Positions 8,979-20,785 of a stretch of DNA of 21,003 bases are shown one piece after another. Origin of the DNA: Candidatus Methylomirabilis sp. (GTDB taxonomy: Bacteria; DYJV01). The position numbers and the translations under genes are program-made. The DNA lies in contig DYJV01000041.1 in assembly GCA_020722945.1 (NCBI GenBank), forward strand, positions 1-21,003, read 5' to 3'. The notes below the pieces were generated by a model. It was not told the DNA's origin. It saw nothing but the letters and a program-made list of their open reading frames with translations, and ran no database searches. Every line of letters starts with the position of its first letter. Position 1 is the stretch's first letter.

Positions 8979-10238
8979 TTAGAACCCTATTTTAAATGAG
9001 TAAGTCATAGATGAAAAACTTTTACATTGAGGACAGTAATCGCTATATTTTGAGGCAGTATAGCCGCAAGAATTACATACACAAACAAGATTCACCCCAT
9101 CTTTTATGTTTAATACTTTTCTGAATATCTCAATATTTTCATTTATCTCCATATTTTTTCTATACATTGATTCAGCAGATATCAAGTTTGCAAATTTTGA
9201 TAAATCTCCACTACCTTCAGAAAATTGCTTTGAAATCTCAAGGGCTTTATCAAAGTTGTTTGTTTTGAGTAGAATTAGAGCTTCTAAAAGCTTTGATTCT
9301 GGCAAATTTAACTTACTCAATGTCCGTTCTGCTTCTTTTACAACTTTATCATCATCTGAATTGAGTGCTAATTTTGCTATTTCACATAGAAAAATAGGAT
9401 TTTTGCTGGTTTTGAAATCATCTTTGAGTGTATTAATAAGAGTTGTTTTATCTCCTATTGTATCTATATTTTGAATTTTTAAAAAATAAAATGGCAATGA
9501 TTGAGGATACTGCTTAATTAGAGAGTTGATCTTACTTTCTGAATAGTTACTTTTTGCATCAAGATATTTTAGTTCAAGGAGAATTTGCTCATTGGCAACT
9601 TTGTCAATATTTTTGGTATCCATTATTTTTTCTTGTATCATAAGAGCTTTATCATATTTTTCAAGTTTTCTGTAACTATCTCTTATTAATTCAAAAAGTT
9701 CTCTATTTTTAAAATTGGTATCTTGGATAAACTCTTCAGATAAATTTATTACAGATGACCACTGTTGTGATTGAAAATAAAATTTCATAAGGTAAAATTT
9801 TGAAATATCAAAAGGCAGACTATTAATGAGACTCTCTTTTTCACTATCATCCTGCTCTATTTGATTTAAAAAGATGATAGAGGGTGCCACTTTATCGTGT
9901 TTAACAGATGCTCTTATGGATTTGAGAGAACCTTTTAGATTCCCATAAAAATAATCTTTTAAACCTTTTTCAAAGAGCTGCAAAGCTTTCTCCTTATCTT
10001 CAAGCGTGTTTTTTAGCTTCCTATTTTTTAATGAAGAGGATAGCTCTTTAATTAAGGAGATAAAAAACATTAAGAGAAAACCAATTATTAAAGAACCTAA
10101 AATAACTAACCCAACTGGAAGATTGTAAAAATTGTTTGGACTTATATGTACATCAACTTTAGTAGGGTTAAAAAAGACAAAGAGTGCAGTAGCAGCTAAA
10201 AGTATAAAGAAGAGAAAAGAGTAAATTTTACCTTTCAT
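8979..10238 (-). CDS. LapA-LapB fusion: membrane TPR protein with C-terminal rubredoxin-like zinc domain
   Basis: This 419-residue protein joins two parts that are separate neighbouring genes (lapA/yciS and lapB/yciM) in E. coli. Residues 1-66 form a LapA-like (DUF1049) hairpin of two membrane helices (about 5-22 and 40-62), with the NPTKVDVHIS-type linker and a short cytoplasmic extension. Residues about 85-370 are helical tetratricopeptide-like repeats. The C terminus has a rubredoxin-like zinc site, C388-x2-C391 (CNSCGYTA) and C402-x2-C405 (CPQCKSF), as in LapB. In E. coli LapB tunes LPS synthesis by directing FtsH to LpxC; that role here is an inference. The ATG has a good AAGGAG and it is the first gene of the minus-strand run. 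Confidence 0.85.
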   Translation of the reverse strand: MKGKIYSFLFFILLAATALFVFFNPTKVDVHISPNNFYNLPVGLVILGSLIIGFLLMFFISLIKELSSSLKNRKLKNTLEDKEKALQLFEKGLKDYFYGNLKGSLKSIRASVKHDKVAPSIIFLNQIEQDDSEKESLINSLPFDISKFYLMKFYFQSQQWSSVINLSEEFIQDTNFKNRELFELIRDSYRKLEKYDKALMIQEKIMDTKNIDKVANEQILLELKYLDAKSNYSESKINSLIKQYPQSLPFYFLKIQNIDTIGDKTTLINTLKDDFKTSKNPIFLCEIAKLALNSDDDKVVKEAERTLSKLNLPESKLLEALILLKTNNFDKALEISKQFSEGSGDLSKFANLISAESMYRKNMEINENIEIFRKVLNIKDGVNLVCVCNSCGYTASKYSDYCPQCKSFSSMTYSFKIGF

Positions 10239-10664: not shown

Positions 10665-12530
10665 ATGAAAAGAAAAATTTTAATTATTTTAGTTTTTTTA
10701 CTGTCAATTTCCTCCCAACTATACTCTTTAGGGGATTACCATACAAATTACAACAACCTCCCCGTAAAAATAGTTTTTGACCCTGCAAATTCACTTATCA
10801 GCCTCCCTATACCATTGCCAAACGATGCAAATACCTCTGTGCTCAACTCTTCTAAAACCGCTTTATACTTACCAATCGAGCAGGGCGATTCTTACTCCTC
10901 CATTTTCATGAAAAAAGCTATCAATGATCTTGGGATAAAAGGTTTTCCTCCTGAAACAATAATCACTATCCCTCTAAATACAGATACCCCAATTGATACA
11001 AACACACTCTATTCAAATATATTTCTTATTGCATTAAAACTCAATCTTTCAGGCACTCCTACTATCAATACTGCTCTTCCACCTGTTGCAGGACCCAAAG
11101 AGCTTATTATTGCACAAGATGGGAATGTTATTAAGATTCACCCCAAAATAAAATTGATGGCAGATGCACAATATGTAGTTCTTATTACAAAAGGTGTCAA
11201 GACTACTGATGGACAACTTGTCGGTCGTGATGCTGCTATCGAGCTTTTATTCAAAACATCATATTCACAACTTATAAAAAGCATGGGTTTAAATACAGAC
11301 TCTCTACTTGCTCTATTCACATTTTCAACTGCTGAGAAAACTCTCGGATTATCAGCTTTTGCAAAGATGCAGTTAGGCTACCCCTATACATCTACTGACA
11401 CTCTCTCTTACAATACCACTATTACATATGAGCTTCAAAGTATGCTTGCAGCAGTCCCTCTCCTTCCATCATCTATAGGGACTCAATCCTCCTCAAGTTT
11501 ATACGGATTACAATACTCTGCTTCAACATTTTCATCATACAATGTGACCACTCTCTCCACAACATATACTCCAATATCTGTCCCCACAATAACTATCTTT
11601 GGTCAAAATCCTAATAAAGTCGTAATATTTCAGCATGGATTAGGTCAGAATAAAAGCAATGCCTTTGCACTTGCAGCTAATTTTTTAACTGCAGGCTACT
11701 CAATTATTGCTATTGATGCACCTCTACATGGAGATAGAGTTGACTCCTCAGATTATAATATGGATTGCAATATGGATGGGATTATATCTTCTGGGGAGTG
11801 TTTTTTTACTACCAATCTTGTAAATGATAGGATAAATATATATCAATCTGTATTTGATCTTACTATGCTTCTAAAAAATATCAAATCTGGTAATTTTGAT
11901 TTTAATGGTGACGGGAATAACGATATCCCCTCAGATATCTACTTTGTAGGACAATCACTTGGGTCTATCGTTGGCTCAATATTCTCCAAATATAATAGTG
12001 AAGATTTAAAAAAGATAGCACTAAATGTTGGCGGTGCTAATTTGGCTGCACTTCTTGACGGCACACAAATTCCTGACCTTCAAAATGCAATCAAATCTTT
12101 AGGTTACACCAAAAATTCTGCACCATACTTTGTATTTACAGGGATCTTAAATCTTTTTCTTGATCCTGCTGACCCATTTTATCATGTTGATTCATCTATC
12201 AAGGATAAAACCATTTTACAAACTGCTTACGGTGATACAATAGTTCCCAATACATCCAATGAACTGCTATCTGCAGCTGTTGGTTATCAAACTCCAACCA
12301 TAATAACTGACCTTGATACCGATAAACATATCATTTATCCTGCTTCAGGATGGTATCAATATGGTGGTATCACAAGCAGTGCCACTTATACTCTGCCTCA
12401 CGGTTTTTTACTATCTCCTTCAGCAGACCCTACATATTATGATACAGAGTTTGTCCAAAAAGCTACTAAGGCTGCTCAGTATCAGATACTTAACTTTTTC
12501 TCTGATGGCGTGCTACTTTTTTTTCTTTAA
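10665..12530 (+). CDS. Secreted VolA/Pla-1-like lipase (alpha/beta hydrolase)
   Basis: A 621-residue exported lipase or lysophospholipase. A Sec signal peptide (about residues 1-21, ending QLYS) is followed by an N-terminal Ig-like region (about 35-200), where KELIIAQDGN and YVVLITKGVKTTDG are typical of the VolA/Pla-1/cef family. The alpha/beta-hydrolase domain then has the oxyanion loop VVIFQHGLGQNKS, nucleophile S431 in VGQSLGS, a likely acid D524 (YGDTIVPN) and a likely H579 (LPHGF). Unlike VolA, a surface lipoprotein, I see no lipobox cysteine after the signal, so the mature enzyme may be soluble or otherwise held. The start has GGAG 7 nt upstream. The FadL-type gene follows after 36 nt, which fits release of fatty acids by the enzyme and uptake by the porin. 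Confidence 0.85.
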   Translation: MKRKILIILVFLLSISSQLYSLGDYHTNYNNLPVKIVFDPANSLISLPIPLPNDANTSVLNSSKTALYLPIEQGDSYSSIFMKKAINDLGIKGFPPETIITIPLNTDTPIDTNTLYSNIFLIALKLNLSGTPTINTALPPVAGPKELIIAQDGNVIKIHPKIKLMADAQYVVLITKGVKTTDGQLVGRDAAIELLFKTSYSQLIKSMGLNTDSLLALFTFSTAEKTLGLSAFAKMQLGYPYTSTDTLSYNTTITYELQSMLAAVPLLPSSIGTQSSSSLYGLQYSASTFSSYNVTTLSTTYTPISVPTITIFGQNPNKVVIFQHGLGQNKSNAFALAANFLTAGYSIIAIDAPLHGDRVDSSDYNMDCNMDGIISSGECFFTTNLVNDRINIYQSVFDLTMLLKNIKSGNFDFNGDGNNDIPSDIYFVGQSLGSIVGSIFSKYNSEDLKKIALNVGGANLAALLDGTQIPDLQNAIKSLGYTKNSAPYFVFTGILNLFLDPADPFYHVDSSIKDKTILQTAYGDTIVPNTSNELLSAAVGYQTPTIITDLDTDKHIIYPASGWYQYGGITSSATYTLPHGFLLSPSADPTYYDTEFVQKATKAAQYQILNFFSDGVLLFFL

Positions 12531-12566
12531 TTTTTTAAATCAAAAATATAAAAGGAGGCTACCGAT

Positions 12567-13973
12567 ATGTTTTTAAAGATAAATAAATTATTATTGATCA
12601 CCTGTTTTGGAGTTATTTTCTCCTCATCAATGCTCTTTGGAGCTGGTTTTCATGTAAATGTTGAGCAGGGAATGAAAGCAATGAGTCTTGGTGGTGCATT
12701 TGTAGGTCTTGCAGATGACCCTACAGCTATTTACTACAACCCAGCAGGTCTTACCCAGCTTGAAAAAAAGTTTAACATTGCAGGGACATACGCTTTCGGT
12801 CAATTTGCTCCTACCATACACTCACCTGAAGTTTACGACAGCTATGGTGTATTGAGGGCAAGTGATCTCTCAAAGGACCAAGACAAAAGATGGTCTCAAA
12901 TTCCAAGCACATATATCTCATATAAGGTTGCAGACAAAGTAACTCTTGGTTTTGCAGTATTTGCTCCATTCGGCACCGCTACTGACTGGACAAGCTCATG
13001 GGTTGGGAGATACTTCAGCGACAAGATAGACCTCAAAACTTACAATTTTAACCCTACCATTGCTTACAAGTTGAATGATAAACTTTCATTTGGTTTTGGA
13101 ATTAATTATGTCTATAGCGATGTTGAAATTAAAAAATCTTTTAGCTATCCATTCCTTGCTCTTAACCCTTCTGTCCAGAAAACTCTTGGGTTTACACCAT
13201 CTGACAGCAGTAAAATGAGCCTATACAATAGACTTTACGATAGAAACTACGATGTTGATATAAAACTTTCTGGCGATACTGACTCAAGTGGAAGAGGATG
13301 GGGTTACAATATCGGCTTCCTTTTCAAACCAAACAACGATTGGCAAATTGGTGCAATTTACAGAAGCGAAGTAAATCTTGATTTTGAAGGTAAAGCTACA
13401 TACAAATATATGCCCGGTATTGCAACTCTCCCTTCTGAAGTTAGTATTGCACAACTTGGATACCCTCTATTCCAACCTTCAGAAATAACAGCCTCAATCA
13501 AACTTCCAGATTACGCAGCATTGGGGATTGTTAATAAATCTTTTAAAGATTGGACATTCTTATTCGATTTTTATTGGACAGGTTGGTCAGATTACAAAGA
13601 GCTATCTGTAAGCTATGATAAATTCCCTTATAGTAGCACCATTCCTAAAAAATGGGATGATGTAATAGCATTGAGACTTGGAATCCAGTATGAAGTGAAC
13701 CAAAATCTTGCTTTCAGAGTTGGATATATGTATGACCAATCACCAACAAACGATGAAACAAGAGCTCCTGAACTTGCATGTTCTGACAGGAATGATGTAA
13801 CTTTTGGTGTTGGCTATAAATTGGGGAATTTTAATATAGATGGAGCATTTTTGATAGCTTTCTTTAAAAATGAAGATAGTAATCTTGTTGATGAGCAAAC
13901 AAAGACAGCATTTAAAGGGGAGTGGGATACAATGGCTTATGTTCTTGGGGTAACTTTATCTTACGGATTCTAA
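12567..13973 (+). CDS. FadL/OMPP1/TodX-family outer-membrane transporter
   Basis: This is an outer-membrane beta-barrel of 468 residues that carries hydrophobic compounds such as long-chain fatty acids. The signal peptide ends near SMLFGA. The mature N terminus is the FadL hatch region GFHVNVEQGMKAMSLGGAF, followed by DDPTAIYYNPAGL, the most conserved stretch of the family. The rest alternates short amphipathic strands, and the protein ends in an aromatic residue (LSYGF), the usual signal for barrel assembly. A strong AAAGGAGG lies 8 nt before ATG. It is the second gene of a two-gene unit with the lipase. In Vibrio cholerae the VolA lipase gene is likewise linked to a fadL gene, which supports a joint role. 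The actual substrate (fatty acid, hydrocarbon or aromatic) cannot be told from sequence. Confidence 0.93.
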   Translation: MFLKINKLLLITCFGVIFSSSMLFGAGFHVNVEQGMKAMSLGGAFVGLADDPTAIYYNPAGLTQLEKKFNIAGTYAFGQFAPTIHSPEVYDSYGVLRASDLSKDQDKRWSQIPSTYISYKVADKVTLGFAVFAPFGTATDWTSSWVGRYFSDKIDLKTYNFNPTIAYKLNDKLSFGFGINYVYSDVEIKKSFSYPFLALNPSVQKTLGFTPSDSSKMSLYNRLYDRNYDVDIKLSGDTDSSGRGWGYNIGFLFKPNNDWQIGAIYRSEVNLDFEGKATYKYMPGIATLPSEVSIAQLGYPLFQPSEITASIKLPDYAALGIVNKSFKDWTFLFDFYWTGWSDYKELSVSYDKFPYSSTIPKKWDDVIALRLGIQYEVNQNLAFRVGYMYDQSPTNDETRAPELACSDRNDVTFGVGYKLGNFNIDGAFLIAFFKNEDSNLVDEQTKTAFKGEWDTMAYVLGVTLSYGF

Positions 13974-14066: not shown

Positions 14067-15128
14067 TTAAATATTCTCTTTTACTACATCAAAATTTATA
14101 GAGCTTTTTGTAACCCTGCTTGTCCCATTATACAAAAATATAAATAGAAAGATAAACTCAAGAAGTATAAAAGATTTTAATGTTATCAACTCTTTTAATC
14201 CTGATACTATATTAAAATTAAAGGTATAAGAGCTGTCGTATGTGAATATTGCTATCAAAAAAGAGTATGCAATTACAAATATAGCCATCCTCTGATAATA
14301 TGAGAATTTCTTCTCACCCCTATAATCTTTTCTGAAAAATTCTGAAAGAACTCTATATCCCTGACTAAAAATTATAGTCACAATAAATGAGATAATGTAG
14401 TGCCCTGTTAAAAATAGTATTATCCCGGCTACCCCTGCAAATCCAAAATTTATAGTTGCCATCAACTGAGTTGGGACAAGTGCCTCACCTTCAAGATGAC
14501 TTTCGTAGGCAACTTTTTTTGTCCCTCCATAAAAAACAGTATTAAATTTTGAAAAAACCTTTCTCCATAAAGGGGAAAGAGTGCTAACAGCTTTCCCATA
14601 ACAGCATCCAAAACTTATACATGCAAACCTCCCAATAGATTCACCAATGCAGTATGATGCAAGAAGTGATGACATAATTGGAACAATATATCCTATACTA
14701 TCTTTTAATGGGATTTGATAAAAAAAACTGACTGTGAACATTACAAGAAATGGTGAAAAGATACTACCCACAAAAACCGCACCACCCACTGTAAATGTAT
14801 GTTTTTTTTTCTCTACAATCATCGCAACTATCTTTGAGGCAGGAACACATATTACAAGGATCAAAGCAGTAAGTGTAAAAAGAAAATCAAATTTAAAACC
14901 TGCTGAACCTGAAAGAGTTATAAAAAGTGCCGTTGCAATAAAGTATGCAAGAGCATTAAAAAATCCATAGAATGTGAGATTGATTGCTGACCATCTATTG
15001 TCATCCATCTTTTTTATAGGGATTGATGCTATAAATTGCCACCTCTCATTAGGGAGATATTTAACCCCTAAATAGTATAACCCAGCAAGAAAAAGTATTA
15101 ATAAAGTTATAAATAAGAAATTTTCCAT
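14067..15128 (-). CDS. Lgt-like integral membrane transferase (prolipoprotein diacylglyceryl transferase family)
   Basis: A multi-spanning membrane protein of 353 residues, with hydrophobic segments spread along the whole length. The middle motif IGESIGRFACISFGCCYG (161-178) resembles the GHAIGRIGCFLAGCCYG-type motif of Lgt-family proteins. VPTQL (218-222) matches the conserved P-T-Q-L, and RVLSEFFRKDYRG (259-271) matches the Lgt C-terminal R...EFFR.D.RG. The usual Asn and Glu of the classical Lgt signature (GRxGNFxNxE) are missing, so this is probably a paralogue with another acceptor rather than the housekeeping Lgt. The ATG is preceded by GGAG. It is the last gene of the minus-strand lipid run, 19 nt after the decarboxylase gene. 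Lgt moves diacylglycerol from phosphatidylglycerol; what this protein moves is unknown. Confidence 0.72.
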   Translation of the reverse strand: MENFLFITLLILFLAGLYYLGVKYLPNERWQFIASIPIKKMDDNRWSAINLTFYGFFNALAYFIATALFITLSGSAGFKFDFLFTLTALILVICVPASKIVAMIVEKKKHTFTVGGAVFVGSIFSPFLVMFTVSFFYQIPLKDSIGYIVPIMSSLLASYCIGESIGRFACISFGCCYGKAVSTLSPLWRKVFSKFNTVFYGGTKKVAYESHLEGEALVPTQLMATINFGFAGVAGIILFLTGHYIISFIVTIIFSQGYRVLSEFFRKDYRGEKKFSYYQRMAIFVIAYSFLIAIFTYDSSYTFNFNIVSGLKELITLKSFILLEFIFLFIFLYNGTSRVTKSSINFDVVKENI

Positions 15129-15147
15129 CTCTACTCCATACTATTTT

Positions 15148-16140
15148 TTATTTAACAATAATGTTTTCAGCTATTGTTTCTCTAACCTTAACCTCTGTTT
15201 CTACAATAGGTCTTGTAAAATTTTCAGAAAATCTGCTTTTCACATCAGCTCTAAGGCTATTTTTGATTATATCGTCAGAAAATTTAACTCTGTTTTCCTG
15301 AAAAAATAGTATTACAGTGCTACTTCCCGGTCTGAAAAGACTTTTAACACAACCCTTTTTTAAAAAATATCCAATATTTATAGGTTTTGGAGAGTCATAT
15401 CTATCTTCAGAGTAACATTGAACTATTTTCCCAATCATCATCGCTACTAATTCCACCATTATTACAAGACCACAATTTGTTCCCCCATCAACATCTGTAT
15501 CTATGACAGTAACAACCCGTTTATTTTTTGAAAGAGGATTTAATATCTTTACTGAGAGAGGGTTACAAGAGTGGTAGTATCCATCTATCTCATAAAAATC
15601 TCTTACAACTCCAGATACAGGGAGGTGATTGTAATGATACTTATCGGGAGTTAACCTGAATATAGCATAATCACCATTTATAAAAGCTTCTTTCCATTGC
15701 TCCTTCTCAATTAATTCATCAAAATCAAAAAATTTCTCTTTAATATAAAATAGTGAAGATTTTTTGATAGAAGCTGCAAACATCTTTGAATCAGCAGGTG
15801 ATGCTATCAAGTTATCGTTTAATTCCAACACCCTGCAATCCCAGAACTTTATCTTCCTTTCAAAAAAATCGTGGTAAGTTTGAAATTTTGAAAGTGGCTC
15901 ATAAAATTCATCTTTATCTATATTAAACTCTTTTATTAACTCCTTCAATCTCTCTTGAGAAAGCTTTCTATTAAAATTAATATGTGCAAGAAATGAAGTT
16001 AAAAACTTTGAGGTAGCTAATTTAAGAATAAAATTCCTATCCTCTCTCGATTTTGAATATAAAAAATTGATAAATCTATCACCCTGTAACTTTTCAGTTA
16101 CAATTTTATTACTTTTTCTACATACATATTGATGAATCAT
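15148..16140 (-). CDS. Phosphatidylserine decarboxylase-like pyruvoyl enzyme
   Basis: A 330-residue member of the phosphatidylserine decarboxylase family, which makes phosphatidylethanolamine and cleaves itself to form a pyruvoyl group. Visible motifs are HDFFERKIK, SPADSK with D117, FRLTPDKYHYNHLPVSG with H169 and H172, and the self-cleavage region FRPGSSTVILFF with G272-S273. These correspond to the Asp-His-Ser triad of the family, with GSS in place of the commoner LGST. A longer frame begins at a TTG at 16185, but the ATG at 16140 has GGAG 7 nt upstream (MIHQYVC...) and is preferred. It overlaps the upstream gene by 23 nt. As most bacteria have a separate housekeeping Psd, this copy may act on a different phospho-lipid made by the neighbouring genes; that is inference. 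Confidence 0.85.
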   Translation of the reverse strand: MIHQYVCRKSNKIVTEKLQGDRFINFLYSKSREDRNFILKLATSKFLTSFLAHINFNRKLSQERLKELIKEFNIDKDEFYEPLSKFQTYHDFFERKIKFWDCRVLELNDNLIASPADSKMFAASIKKSSLFYIKEKFFDFDELIEKEQWKEAFINGDYAIFRLTPDKYHYNHLPVSGVVRDFYEIDGYYHSCNPLSVKILNPLSKNKRVVTVIDTDVDGGTNCGLVIMVELVAMMIGKIVQCYSEDRYDSPKPINIGYFLKKGCVKSLFRPGSSTVILFFQENRVKFSDDIIKNSLRADVKSRFSENFTRPIVETEVKVRETIAENIIVK

Positions 16141-18373
16141 CCAATTTCTCCATATCTGAAAAGTTATTTGAAGTTTTATCTTCAACTATTTTTAAAATTG
16201 CAGTAACAAGCAAAACTATTTCATCGAGTGTCAACTGCCCCCTATCCATTTTGCTTTTCAAATTCTTATAATCCTCACATCCACTCAATCTTTCTAAAAC
16301 ATCAAAAGCTTCCGATATATGCTCCATTCGTAGATCTTCCCGATAAAAACTTTCTGCTGATAAATTAAATGATTCTGAATCTTTATCAAATGGCGTCTCT
16401 ATATTTATTTTGCTACAAATTTTCTTTGTCAATCTTGAAGAGACTCTACTTTTTTTATCTTTTACCCTATTTTCAAGATCAGCAACAATATCGTGAAGAT
16501 TACTATTTTCAATAATAGAACTCCCCTCTTGCTTTATGAAATTTATCAGAGCTTGGTTGTAATCATCAATTTTTACTTTAAAATAATTGTTGTATCTACT
16601 GCTCTTCTTTATATTTTTGCAATTTTTTAATATATTTTGCATAAATACATTTTTACTATCTCTATTTACAAAGAAAGATTTTAAGCCTATTGCTGATGCA
16701 AAAATAGGAAATCTTCGTTCACTTTCAATTGTAGGGGTGTCAGGGATATCACTGTGAGTAATTTTACCACTTGCTGCTAATCTGTAAGCAATTTCTGTTA
16801 TAAGGATTTGCAATGAAGTTGCACTGCTCATATCTTTGATTATAGAATCAAAAAGGCTGTAATACCTACCCTCAAAACCTGTCCACCCAACTTTGTTTAT
16901 CTCTCTCAAACGGTAAAAACAGTAAAAAGATAGATTTTTATGAAAGATTCCAAGCTGATTTAGCTCTTTTTTTAATCTTTCATGATTTCCAACTTTACCA
17001 TCAAATGCTGGTGAATTAGACGTGCTTAAAGGAGCAACAAGATAATCTAACAACCTATAATCAGGAACAAAATCCCCTTTAAGCCTCAACACTCTTTTAA
17101 AAAACTTGTCAACCCATTCAGGACCAAAAGGTGTAAATGTTTTCCCAAATAATTTTATCTTTGCTTTATTCTTCCACTTTCTCCAGAGCATTCTCAAATG
17201 AGTATAATCAAGCTCATGAGGTAAAAAGCCGAGTGCTGTTTCGGGATGCATATTTTCAAAATTAAGCCTGTGGGGTGATGCTGAATAGTTAGAGGGGAAG
17301 AGTGAAATAAAATGTTCAACTATTTTGATCACTAAATCTCCAAAATATTTCTCATTTTCTACTCCCAACTCTTTTGAATCACGAAAACTCTTTTCGAGAA
17401 TCGAGCTGCCAATATTTATATGTATTCCATTATTTGAGAGCGACGTTGTTGAAATATCGGGCAAAATTACCAAATTATTTTTTAAAAGTCCTGCATCTTT
17501 ACATTTTGAGATAGTTTTTAATTTACTCATACTCAAAACTTTGTGGCAGAGGTGCATATACTCTTTCTTCTCTTCCCCCTTATCCCAACCTGAAAGAGAT
17601 GGGCTAACAAATATCTCTCTATAAAGCTCATCAGGGATTACAGAATTCAAACTTCTCTGATTGACTGGTGGGAGTGGCGATTCATAAACTACTACCTTTT
17701 GACCTGACGAAGTCAGAGCAAATTTTATATTAGAGTATTCAACAGCAAGTTGTGTAAGTAAATACCTCAAAAGATACTCTTCAGAAATCCCAACTCCTAT
17801 ATCTCGTATATTTATACCCTTTATAAGATAAAGTGATAATGTTTCAGGGGAAGTGTTATCATTTGAGAAGTTTTTAAGTATAGATTCACCTATACTCTTT
17901 GATTTTTGATCTAAAAACTGAAAAAGATCTGTAAGTGCAATCTTTATAAGGTAACTGACAGGGATCCTGACAAATACTCTCTCATTTATATTTATAAAGA
18001 AAGTATCGTAATCCTCTCTAAATCCTGACAAAGGGTTACTCTTATCTTTGAGAAGATCATTACTAAAAAGAGTTTTTGCATCCTCTGAAAGGTTATCTAT
18101 TGGTATCCTTACCCAACTATTCTCCCATATCCTGCTTTGACTATTATTAAGATAATCATCAATTTTTTCGAGGATTGATGGTGAAATATCTTTATTTAAT
18201 ACTCTCTGCTTGAGGTTTTTATAAAATAGAGAGTTTTGGATATTTTGAACAATATCTATGTTAGAAGCACTACCCTCTACTGCAACCTGAAGCTCTGTCT
18301 CTGTGCCTGCTGTTGTAAATATGTGGTTTGGCAAAATTTTTAGAGATTCATCTTTTATCTTTATAATTTTCAT
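16118..18373 (-). CDS. Large cytoplasmic protein of unknown family
   Basis: I do not recognise this 751-residue protein. It has no signal peptide or membrane segment, so it is probably cytoplasmic. The central part looks well conserved in character: HPETALGFLPHELDYTHLRM (376-395), FGKTFTPFGPEW (409-420), GWTGFEGRYYSLFD (496-509), THSDIPDTPTIESERRF (539-555) and SSRYNNYFKV (591-600) are rich in His, Glu, Arg, Trp and Tyr in the way enzyme cores are. The last 130 residues are charged and less distinctive. It lies between the PHP-glycosyltransferase gene (3-nt gap upstream) and the decarboxylase gene (23-nt overlap), and has no clear Shine-Dalgarno, so its translation is tied to theirs. The context points to the same lipid or glycolipid pathway. 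No reaction can be assigned. Confidence 0.85.
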   Translation of the reverse strand: MKIIKIKDESLKILPNHIFTTAGTETELQVAVEGSASNIDIVQNIQNSLFYKNLKQRVLNKDISPSILEKIDDYLNNSQSRIWENSWVRIPIDNLSEDAKTLFSNDLLKDKSNPLSGFREDYDTFFININERVFVRIPVSYLIKIALTDLFQFLDQKSKSIGESILKNFSNDNTSPETLSLYLIKGINIRDIGVGISEEYLLRYLLTQLAVEYSNIKFALTSSGQKVVVYESPLPPVNQRSLNSVIPDELYREIFVSPSLSGWDKGEEKKEYMHLCHKVLSMSKLKTISKCKDAGLLKNNLVILPDISTTSLSNNGIHINIGSSILEKSFRDSKELGVENEKYFGDLVIKIVEHFISLFPSNYSASPHRLNFENMHPETALGFLPHELDYTHLRMLWRKWKNKAKIKLFGKTFTPFGPEWVDKFFKRVLRLKGDFVPDYRLLDYLVAPLSTSNSPAFDGKVGNHERLKKELNQLGIFHKNLSFYCFYRLREINKVGWTGFEGRYYSLFDSIIKDMSSATSLQILITEIAYRLAASGKITHSDIPDTPTIESERRFPIFASAIGLKSFFVNRDSKNVFMQNILKNCKNIKKSSRYNNYFKVKIDDYNQALINFIKQEGSSIIENSNLHDIVADLENRVKDKKSRVSSRLTKKICSKINIETPFDKDSESFNLSAESFYREDLRMEHISEAFDVLERLSGCEDYKNLKSKMDRGQLTLDEIVLLVTAILKIVEDKTSNNFSDMEKLDDSSICM

Positions 18374-18376
18374 TTA

Positions 18377-20785
18377 TTAATTGATAGCGTAAAGAATATT
18401 TTCTAATAGAGATTTGCTCTCTTCAACTTCAATAAAGTTGTTACTCTCCTGAAACATTTGCTCTATAATGTTATCCCAGTTATAATATTCGAGAACTCTT
18501 CTTCTTGCCTCTTCTCTAAATTTTATATAATTTTCAGGATTATATCTCTTCTCTTCAATAAGTTGACTTATTAGATTTACCCAATCATCGTAATTTTGGG
18601 TAGGTAGAGAAAATCCTGTTTTACCATTATCAATTATCTCCTTTGGTCCTCCAACATCTGAAACAATAGAGCAAACCCCGCATGCTTGTGCTTCTAATAC
18701 AACCATGCCAAACGTCTCTGTAAGACTTGGGAAAATTAAGAAATCAGCATCTGAATATATATCTGGTAACTTATTATACTCAACTTTACCTTTGAAGGTA
18801 AGATTATCTACATCTTTATATCTTTTTTTAAACTCTTCAAGATTAGGTCCTGCACCCACTATTTTAAACTCTATATCTTTATATCTTCTCTGAAGCTCCA
18901 TGAAAACCTTTATTGCAAAATCTATATTTTTATCCATAGATACCCTGCCTACATACAGAAGAGATACTTTTTTTCTCTTTTGTAACTCTAAAAAAGATTT
19001 TTTAGGATAAAATACATCAGTTTCTATACCTCTATTAAATTTTGTCAGTTTACTTTTTGGAATACCCCTTTTCTCTAAAAATTCAATATACTCATGAGAG
19101 GGAACAGCTGCAAAGCTCATTAAACTGTAAAATTTAACAAGAAGTGTCTCTATAAGTTGCGAGAGATCCTCTTTCTCACTAATATACGATATTTCAGATG
19201 CAAAATCGGTATGAAATACTCCAATACTTTTTATATTCAGAAGTCTTGATATTATTACTCCAAGCATTCCAACAGGACCTGGCGTAGATATATAAATTTC
19301 ATCAGGATTTAATTGATCCACTATCTTAAGTGCTTTTAGAAATGATGGAATCTTTATCGTTATATCAGGGTAGTAAGGTAGTGGAAATGAGTAAACTTCT
19401 GGGATAAGGATTATATTGCTACTTAATCTACTGTTTTCCCTCTCCTCACTATTGAGTGAAGAGATAATTTTGAGAGGCAAACCTTTTCTCTCTGATATTT
19501 TATCTATAGTTTTTAAAGTTACAGATACTCCGTTGAGATCATCAATTGTATCTGTAAACCACAATATCTTCTTCTTTTTTTTGCTGAATTTGAAGTTCCT
19601 TTTTAACTCTTCGAGTATCTTCCTATTTTTATTCAGATGGTTAAAACTGCTGAAAAAGGGTGATATCATAAAGAGTAAGGTTATTATCGAACCTACATCC
19701 CTGCTTATTTTAAAAAAATTGACTTTTTTAATATTTTTCCCAATTGAAGATACAATCTTCCCAAGATATTCATCTGTAACATTTGAAATCTTATCATAAA
19801 TAATAGCGGTTCTTTTCTCAACATCTTTATTAATATCTATTTCCGAACACTCCTCAATAAGAGAGACAACCGTATCAGCAATCTTAGAGTTTAACTCTTT
19901 TGAGAGTTTTGATATCTTGTATTTATCAATTATAGAGATTTTTTTGTTGGCAAATAAGTAACTATTAATATTAGAAAAGAAATTTTCTGACTCTATCTTA
20001 TTTGATTTTGTATATTGGAATGCAATATTATAAATAGTAAAAACAAAATCTTGAAATGTATTATTTCTACCACCAAAGGTGCTTTTCTTATTAAGAATAT
20101 TATTTAAAAAATGTTTTGGTGTTGCAGCATCACAAATTGTATACGTTGTCCCACAATATAGACCACTATGGTCATCTGACCCACCAGTAAAACTTTTTTT
20201 CCAAGGAGAGTAAGGGAGCGGTTCTATCTTGTATTTTCTAAAAAGATGCTCTATGTTGTAAGGCTCAAGATAGGAGAGTATATCAATCCATGTCTGATTG
20301 TGGGTAAGATTCCTCGCACCATTGATACCTTCAAATACATCAAACAGAAGTATTAACTTTTCAAGATGTTCAAGTTTTAATTTATTGTTTATCGAAAAAG
20401 TTGCATGAGCCACTGAATATGGGAGCTCTTCATTTATTATATAACTTCTTAAATCATAAATATTGTTCCTGATTTTATTTATAAAATCAAATTGTGACTC
20501 TGTAAAACCAAATATCAGGATATGTATCTTGCAGTTATCTTCCGGGAAATATGTAGTTGTCTCAACACCTGTAAAAGTGTTTAGAGGGTATTTTTCATTA
20601 AGAATAAGGGAACCTGTAATATCATTGTGGTCAGTAATTGTTACAAAATCCATACCCCTTTCCATAGCTGTGTTGTAGATATGGTCAACTTTTGTATAGC
20701 TTTCGCTTGCACCTATCTTCTTGAGAAACCACTCTGATGGGTGTTTGGAGTATTCAGAATGAACATGAAGGTCAACTTTTGCCAC
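18377..20785 (-). CDS. PHP-domain / GT4 glycosyltransferase fusion
   Basis: An 802-residue two-domain protein. Residues 1 to about 240 are a PHP metallo-hydrolase domain with a full set of likely metal ligands: H7-x-H9, D52-H53 (TITDHND), E75 (TGVET), H88, H127 (VAHATF) and D204-D205-H206 (GGSDDHSG). A helical linker (about 250-400) includes a hydrophobic stretch at 364-381. Residues about 405-790 are a GT-B fold glycosyltransferase of the GT4 type, with a donor-site motif E690-x7-E698 (TETFGMVVLEAQACG), LLYVGRVSMDKN and the acceptor-side GVFHTDF. The start is GTG at 20785 with AAAAGGAG 6 nt upstream, in keeping with the MAKVDLHVHS opening of PHP proteins. It is the first gene of the run. The PHP part might remove a phosphate from the glycosylated product, or be regulatory. 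Confidence 0.87.
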   Translation of the reverse strand: MAKVDLHVHSEYSKHPSEWFLKKIGASESYTKVDHIYNTAMERGMDFVTITDHNDITGSLILNEKYPLNTFTGVETTTYFPEDNCKIHILIFGFTESQFDFINKIRNNIYDLRSYIINEELPYSVAHATFSINNKLKLEHLEKLILLFDVFEGINGARNLTHNQTWIDILSYLEPYNIEHLFRKYKIEPLPYSPWKKSFTGGSDDHSGLYCGTTYTICDAATPKHFLNNILNKKSTFGGRNNTFQDFVFTIYNIAFQYTKSNKIESENFFSNINSYLFANKKISIIDKYKISKLSKELNSKIADTVVSLIEECSEIDINKDVEKRTAIIYDKISNVTDEYLGKIVSSIGKNIKKVNFFKISRDVGSIITLLFMISPFFSSFNHLNKNRKILEELKRNFKFSKKKKKILWFTDTIDDLNGVSVTLKTIDKISERKGLPLKIISSLNSEERENSRLSSNIILIPEVYSFPLPYYPDITIKIPSFLKALKIVDQLNPDEIYISTPGPVGMLGVIISRLLNIKSIGVFHTDFASEISYISEKEDLSQLIETLLVKFYSLMSFAAVPSHEYIEFLEKRGIPKSKLTKFNRGIETDVFYPKKSFLELQKRKKVSLLYVGRVSMDKNIDFAIKVFMELQRRYKDIEFKIVGAGPNLEEFKKRYKDVDNLTFKGKVEYNKLPDIYSDADFLIFPSLTETFGMVVLEAQACGVCSIVSDVGGPKEIIDNGKTGFSLPTQNYDDWVNLISQLIEEKRYNPENYIKFREEARRRVLEYYNWDNIIEQMFQESNNFIEVEESKSLLENILYAIN

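Follow-up and report, generated by a model that had tools for sequence, protein, structure and literature searches.

Gene content and layout of the locus

The window analysed here is a stretch of 21,003 nucleotides (nt) from Candidatus Methylomirabilis sp. (GenBank assembly GCA_020722945.1, contig DYJV01000041.1, positions 1 to 21,003 of the forward strand) and is part of a 2.5-Mb draft genome. Towards its right-hand end lie four minus-strand genes, three of which form the cassette that is the subject of this work, which comprises a ligase-like protein, a relative of phosphatidylserine decarboxylase (Psd) and a relative of the lipoprotein diacylglyceryl transferase (Lgt). The fourth encodes a glycosyltransferase fusion (PHP-GT4). 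The four features, with protein lengths in amino acids (aa), are:

18377-20785, minus strand: PHP-GT4, 802 aa, GTG start with AAGGAG upstream
16118-18373, minus strand: ligase-like protein (core 1), 751 aa
15148-16140, minus strand: Psd-like decarboxylase (core 2), 330 aa from ATG 16140
14067-15128, minus strand: Lgt-like membrane enzyme (core 3), 353 aa

The original prediction, made from the sequence of the window by itself, described these genes as packed with a 3-nt gap, a 23-nt overlap and a 19-nt gap. The open reading frames (ORFs) are indeed found there and the spacings hold, with the overlap falling between the Psd-like and ligase-like genes, if the Psd-like gene starts at ATG 16140. 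This codon has GGAG just 5' of it, and the mechanical ORF finder prefers TTG 16185. No Rfam families were found in the window, and promoter and terminator scans of it gave results no better than those from shuffled sequence.

A three-gene core is conserved across distant phyla

In order to establish whether the genes are neighbours in related genomes, the check that had been proposed for the original prediction, we looked at two collections. Scanning one-per-species named genomes with a family alignment gave 327 loci encoding relatives of the ligase-like protein, of which the best 80 of 327 were kept, and the neighbourhood counts cover 83 loci (labelled L) holding the ligase-like gene. The second collection was a kinship-sampled set of 386 whole genomes. 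Among these 386, strong relatives of the ligase-like protein outside the window's own genome occur in three, with 43-46% identity and kinship at domain level only, and each of the three has a Psd-like and then an Lgt-like gene behind it, in unchanged order. Four of the 386 genomes have the ligase-like protein, and these four, and at the threshold used no other, also have the cassette-type Lgt, a coincidence with odds of 1 in 9e8 if the occurrences are independent. Genome G001, the window's relative in the same taxonomic order, has neither the ligase-like protein nor the cassette-type Lgt and the cassette is therefore patchy in its distribution.

The order ligase-like, Psd-like, Lgt-like is kept in most of the 83 loci, and in the loci examined the core genes often overlap or sit a few bases apart. 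A Psd-like gene was detected at 81 of the 83 and an Lgt-like gene at 71; several of the misses correspond to contigs with an early end, and Geomesophilobacter (L048) has its Lgt-like gene ~10 kb away. Phyla with the core include Desulfobacterota, Nitrospirota, Nitrospinota and Planctomycetota. Most carriers are Desulfobacterota (Geobacter relatives, Desulfuromonadales, Desulfosarcina and Syntrophaceae), with single records labelled Thermodesulfovibrio, Nitrospira, Nitrospinae, Brocadia and Oceanospirillaceae. As there are cultured carriers, namely Desulfuromusa kysingii, Citrifermentans bremense, Trichlorobacter thiogenes, Desulfosarcina alkanivorans and Geomonas silvestris, the cassette is directly testable. 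The closest ligase to that of the window in the tree comes from a bin labelled Thermodesulfovibrio (L084), at a long distance. At the sensitivity used, searches of viral contigs and of plasmids turned up no relatives. Between the three core families, pairwise distances correlate with r 0.82-0.89, a correlation that shared ancestry of the organisms alone can partly produce.

Ligase-like, Psd-like and Lgt-like genes remain neighbours in distant phyla, and the original prediction thus survived its check. Conservation of the neighbourhood goes far beyond what chance would give, and our confidence that the three-gene core is a real module is very high.

PHP-GT4 is a recurrent partner of the core

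PHP-GT4 carries an N-terminal PHP phosphoesterase-type domain (residues about 1-220) fused to a GT4 glycosyltransferase (about 410-780), with matches to the Pfam families PF00534 (E 1.9e-36, 125.6 bits), PF13692 and PF13439. The PHP ligands H7, H9, D52, H53, E75, H127, D204 and H206 are invariant in 17 of 17 aligned sequences, all of which also keep the GT4 motif (D/E)690-x7-E698. The PHP model PF02811 matches 7 of the 17 members, the window's protein not being one of them.

A PHP-GT4 gene lies near the cassette at 21 of the 83 loci, compared with about 0.5 expected from a simple density estimate, and its position varies. It is first in the operon in the window, directly before the ligase gene in L036, between the Psd-like and Lgt-like genes in L030, L041 and L056, after the Lgt-like gene in L019 and L055, and divergent upstream of the cassette in L026, L034, L045 and others. 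No full-length copy was found in the core-bearing genomes G064 and G139. The four-gene run of the original prediction is thus conserved in its three-gene part, and the four-gene unit was rejected; PHP-GT4 is a recurrent partner and is not core. The window's PHP-GT4 shares 43-45% identity with the Desulfuromusa copies and about 30% with the rest, and the label therefore takes in two or more subfamilies. In L026, L034, L055 and L073 PHP-GT4 has as its neighbour a radical SAM protein of about 420 aa with no close named equivalog.

The 751-aa protein has the predicted fold of glutamate-cysteine ligases

The 751-aa protein had been described as belonging to no recognised family. At the level of sequence models this stands, as neither Pfam nor NCBIfam offers a match to the protein, nine diverse relatives likewise lack a significant Pfam hit, PF04262 and PF04107, the two Pfam types of GshA, match neither it nor these relatives, and comparison with PDB sequences, alone and as a profile, gave nothing significant. 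At the level of structure a fold was found, of the glutamate-cysteine-ligase/YbdK/PafA type. An AlphaFold2 model built from a four-sequence alignment was unusable (predicted local distance difference test score, pLDDT, 49.5), which was mended by an alignment of 84 family members (pLDDT 88.4, predicted template modelling score 0.92). The top Foldseek matches of this second model are glutathione-synthesis ligases (E 0.003, probability 1.00). VIA-align gave Z 20.0 for GshAB 3ln7 (393 aligned residues, root mean square deviation, rmsd, 4.3), 18.7 for GshA 1v4g (410 aligned, rmsd 3.9; GshA range 18.7-19.0) and 18.3 for YbdK 1r8g (335 aligned, rmsd 3.9), while PafA/Dop are more distant at Z 13-17 and the first chain outside the glutamine-synthetase-like fold group scores Z 4.1. 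The likeness to GshA, GshAB and YbdK lies in the predicted fold and extends across about 335-415 aligned residues.

An N-terminal G-x-E-x-E strand resembles that of E. coli GshA, and its residues G23, E25 and E27 are kept in 82 of the 82 ligase-like sequences covering them; H318, E501 and R503 are kept in 84 of 84. The conserved residues lie on or beside predicted strands, their equivalence to those of GshA being judged by eye, and would fit a metal-dependent ligase. As the model matches glutamate-cysteine ligases and their kin, the protein is probably an ATP-dependent carboxylate-amine ligase. It differs from the known glutamate-cysteine ligase superfamily in its size (750-820 aa vs about 350-520 aa), in having no detectable sequence similarity to it and in being tied to Psd-like and Lgt-like genes.

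The presence of PafA and Dop among the structural matches, together with the fact that the known substrates of Lgt are lipoproteins, would fit a system of protein or peptide modification in which the ligase, like PafA, would act on a protein and the substrate lipidated by the Lgt-like enzyme would be a special protein. We regard this as quite improbable, since the matches to GshA, GshAB and YbdK are better (Z 18-20), no conserved small protein that could serve as substrate was seen in the neighbour clusters and a decarboxylase of the Psd type would not be expected there.

The glutathione pathway proper was set aside because there is no GshA family match in the protein or in the window genome, where no GshA of either Pfam type was found. 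The same absence, the glutamate-cysteine-ligase-type fold and the GT4 relatives of PHP-GT4, which include BshA and the mycothiol glycosyltransferase family, could be taken to point to a low-molecular-weight thiol or redox cofactor (glutathione-, bacillithiol- or mycothiol-like) anchored by the membrane enzyme. Such a product is highly improbable given that PHP-GT4 is outside the core, and lipids are indicated both by the tight linkage of a membrane enzyme of the Lgt type and by a neighbouring lipid N-methyltransferase.

The cassette encodes its own Psd and Lgt paralogues

The second core protein matches PS_Dcarbxylase PF02666 (E 1.1e-36, 126.8 bits, cut-off 22) and is well supported as a predicted pyruvoyl-dependent decarboxylase of the Psd superfamily. 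The catalytic Asp and two His (D117, H169 and H172) and the Ser of the Gly-Ser self-cleavage site (S273) are invariant in 44 of 44 sequences, and the Gly (G272) is present in 43 of the 44. It aligns over its full length with the PRK00723 Psd group at 182 bits against an equivalog cut-off of 371, and scores 80.2 bits against TIGR00163 (cut-off 111.75). As it falls below every Psd equivalog cut-off its substrate may differ. In contrast to Psd of the PRK00723 type it carries PAD(S/A), YHYxH and RPGSST instead of the usual motifs, and it is present on top of a canonical Psd.

The third core protein is likewise well supported as a predicted member of the Lgt superfamily. PF01790 matches 41 of 43 family members; the window's gene scores 31.6 bits (cut-off 24.9) in the genome search and is not listed by hmmscan of the protein alone. 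Residues Y54, R167, G178, R259 and E263 are invariant and align with Y26, R143, G154, R239 and E243 of E. coli Lgt, which we take to be, along with H103, N146 and E151, the positions that matter in that enzyme. No His occupies the H103 position, and Cys is found at those of N146 and E151, as it is in the genome's canonical Lgt. The Lgt-like enzyme further differs from Lgt in being longer at the N- and C-terminus, in having an extra conserved K204-K205-Y208 loop and in sitting beside a canonical Lgt in the genome. The canonical Lgt (L105 1477-2241, minus strand) has GCCYGK at the place of GELWGR in E. coli Lgt, and the Cys-rich motif is therefore not peculiar to the cassette paralogue. With these Pfam matches, the invariant PHP ligands and PF01790 at the level of the family, the earlier domain calls of PHP-GT4, Psd and Lgt are borne out.

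The window genome encodes a separate ordinary Psd (212 aa) on contig C68, adjoining a CDP-alcohol-transferase-like gene, and a separate canonical Lgt on contig C157. Ten further carrier genomes have exactly two Psd-family genes each, one of them canonical besides the cassette copy; nine of the ten also have two genes of the Lgt family, and in the tenth, a draft genome, the cassette copy is the only one seen. The possibility that the cassette genes are the genome's sole Psd and Lgt was rejected on account of these canonical copies, and the cassette thus has its own Psd and Lgt paralogues.

Cassette neighbours include lipid and phosphate genes

In two loci (L019 and L055) a methyltransferase gene lies inside the cassette, closest to the ornithine-lipid enzyme OlsG and the phospholipid enzyme PmtA. 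DUF2062 genes are found behind the Lgt-like gene in many Geobacter relatives, and a zinc-dependent phospholipase C family gene lies near 10 loci. Genes for PhoU, Pst, polyphosphate kinase, CHAD or CYTH proteins lie near 25 of the 83 loci. PhoU itself is near 12 of the 83, compared with about 0.7 expected for two copies (0.3-1.0 for 1-3 copies per 4-Mb genome). The phosphate-gene loci are not independent, yet their carriers span several families with differing arrangements. This setting suggests phosphate-sparing membrane remodelling.

CHAD and CYTH genes are usually tied to polyphosphate. In L036 and L069 CHAD, ParA-like and CYTH-type genes lie directly behind the Psd-like gene. In G064 the genes 3' of the cassette (L020 1-4446, 5015-6196) include some that resemble the GAK system (CofD-like, HprK-like and ATP-grasp), one for a fusion of a PhoU domain with a kinase-like domain, and one for a 393-aa protein with no Pfam match.

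Remodelling of this kind has a precedent in a sulfate reducer, which under phosphate limitation swaps >90% of its phospholipid for glycolipids and ornithine lipids (PMC5193443). In D. alaskensis G20 the genes Dde_3613 and Dde_3661 take part in this response through Agt glycolipids and OlsF ornithine lipids (PMC5193443). The cassette resembles the response in its GT4 partner, the relative of a lipid N-methyltransferase at two loci, the phosphate-regulon neighbours and the same kind of host. It differs in having no recognised OlsF-, OlsBA- or BtaA-type gene; a ligase, a decarboxylase and an Lgt paralogue are there instead.

The same neighbours bear on whether the cassette alters an existing phospholipid and retains its phosphorus. 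The Psd-like enzyme would then produce phosphatidylethanolamine or a near relative, to the amine of which the ligase would add an amino acid, with the Lgt-like enzyme adding diacylglyceryl to the resulting head group. The full-length alignment with PRK00723, the retained catalytic residues and the phosphatidylethanolamine N-methyltransferase-like genes beside two cassette copies would all agree with this route. We nevertheless hold it to be rather unlikely, because every carrier genome checked has a separate canonical Psd, the PRK00723 score is far under the equivalog cut-off and the phosphate-gene setting better suits a product free of phosphorus.

A candidate amino-glycerolipid pathway

The reading we prefer is that the cassette encodes a dedicated, undescribed amino-glycerolipid pathway. 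We put its probability at roughly 0.5, its substrates, step order, product and regulation being inferred. What is supported is the gene set, the conservation of the three-gene core, the paralogous nature of its members, the fold of the ligase and the preservation of the active-site residues. A ligase, a pyruvoyl decarboxylase and a diacylglyceryl transferase make a sensible set for an amino-lipid head group because a free alpha-amino acid, which the pyruvoyl enzyme needs, would be offered by either a gamma-linked glutamyl group or diacylglyceryl-cysteine. The soluble glutamate-cysteine-ligase-type enzyme would join an amino acid and an amine with ATP, the decarboxylase would take off the alpha-carboxylate to leave a free amine, and the membrane Lgt paralogue would transfer diacylglyceryl, presumably from phosphatidylglycerol, to the small-molecule head group. 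PHP-GT4, where present, may add a sugar or make a glycolipid in the same programme. Searches of the open-access literature found no description of this gene set or of diacylglyceryl-cysteine as a free lipid.

It is likely that the product of the cassette is a lipid. The special glyco(phospho)lipid of the original prediction survives in so far as a special lipid is still the best reading; an amino-glycerolipid is the better candidate, with glycosylation a linked extra. A phosphorus-free product, which we favour because of the phosphate-gene setting and the sulfate reducer's switch to phosphorus-free lipids (PMC5193443), is a possibility we put forward with some doubt. In our favoured version the Lgt paralogue would retain the ancestral Lgt chemistry and form a diacylglyceryl thioether of cysteine or of a cysteine-containing dipeptide. 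This would be a phosphorus-free counterpart of phosphatidylserine, and its decarboxylation by the Psd-like enzyme would yield the counterpart of phosphatidylethanolamine, so that the end product is perhaps a phosphorus-free analogue of that lipid. A thioether product taken by itself is unlikely. The wider proposal, in which the Lgt paralogue lipidates a small amino-acid conjugate and not a protein and thereby gives anaerobic iron- and sulfate-reducers a new class of phosphate-sparing, phosphorus-free thioether (or amide) amino-glycerolipid, is tentative and rather unlikely.

A number of points weigh against the amino-glycerolipid reading. Membership of the 751-aa protein in the ligase superfamily, highly probable as it is, follows from its predicted fold only, and hhalign found nothing against E. 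coli GshA, a blank comparison which makes the protein a distinct family within the superfamily. Phosphatidylserine could simply be the substrate of the Psd-like enzyme. The number of PhoU neighbours expected was computed for 4-Mb genomes with 1-3 copies, taking the loci as independent. Upstream of the cassette, Pho-box-like sites are weakly enriched (13/75 vs 22/367 control genes, p 0.002; p 0.02 once near-identical loci are collapsed), and the window has no clear Pho box and no phosphate gene.

A ligase-like family of 327 loci for which there is no Pfam or NCBIfam model is accompanied, at the 83 loci we looked at, by paralogues of two lipid enzymes with housekeeping roles. Should the product of the cassette prove to be a new membrane lipid, it may be common in anoxic sediments and among sulfate reducers and relatives of Geobacter; Lgt chemistry would then be extended beyond proteins, and a gene marker would become available for lipids of unknown origin.

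Other genes in the window

Two plus-strand genes at 10665-13973 run convergently towards the cassette and encode a FadL-like protein and a VolA/Pla-1-like lipase. The lipase and the FadL-family outer-membrane protein are possibly an uptake pair for fatty acids or lysolipids. On the minus strand at 8979-10238 lies a gene for a 419-aa protein with an N-terminal LapA domain and a C-terminal LapB-type TPR and zinc ribbon, an apparent LapA-LapB fusion.

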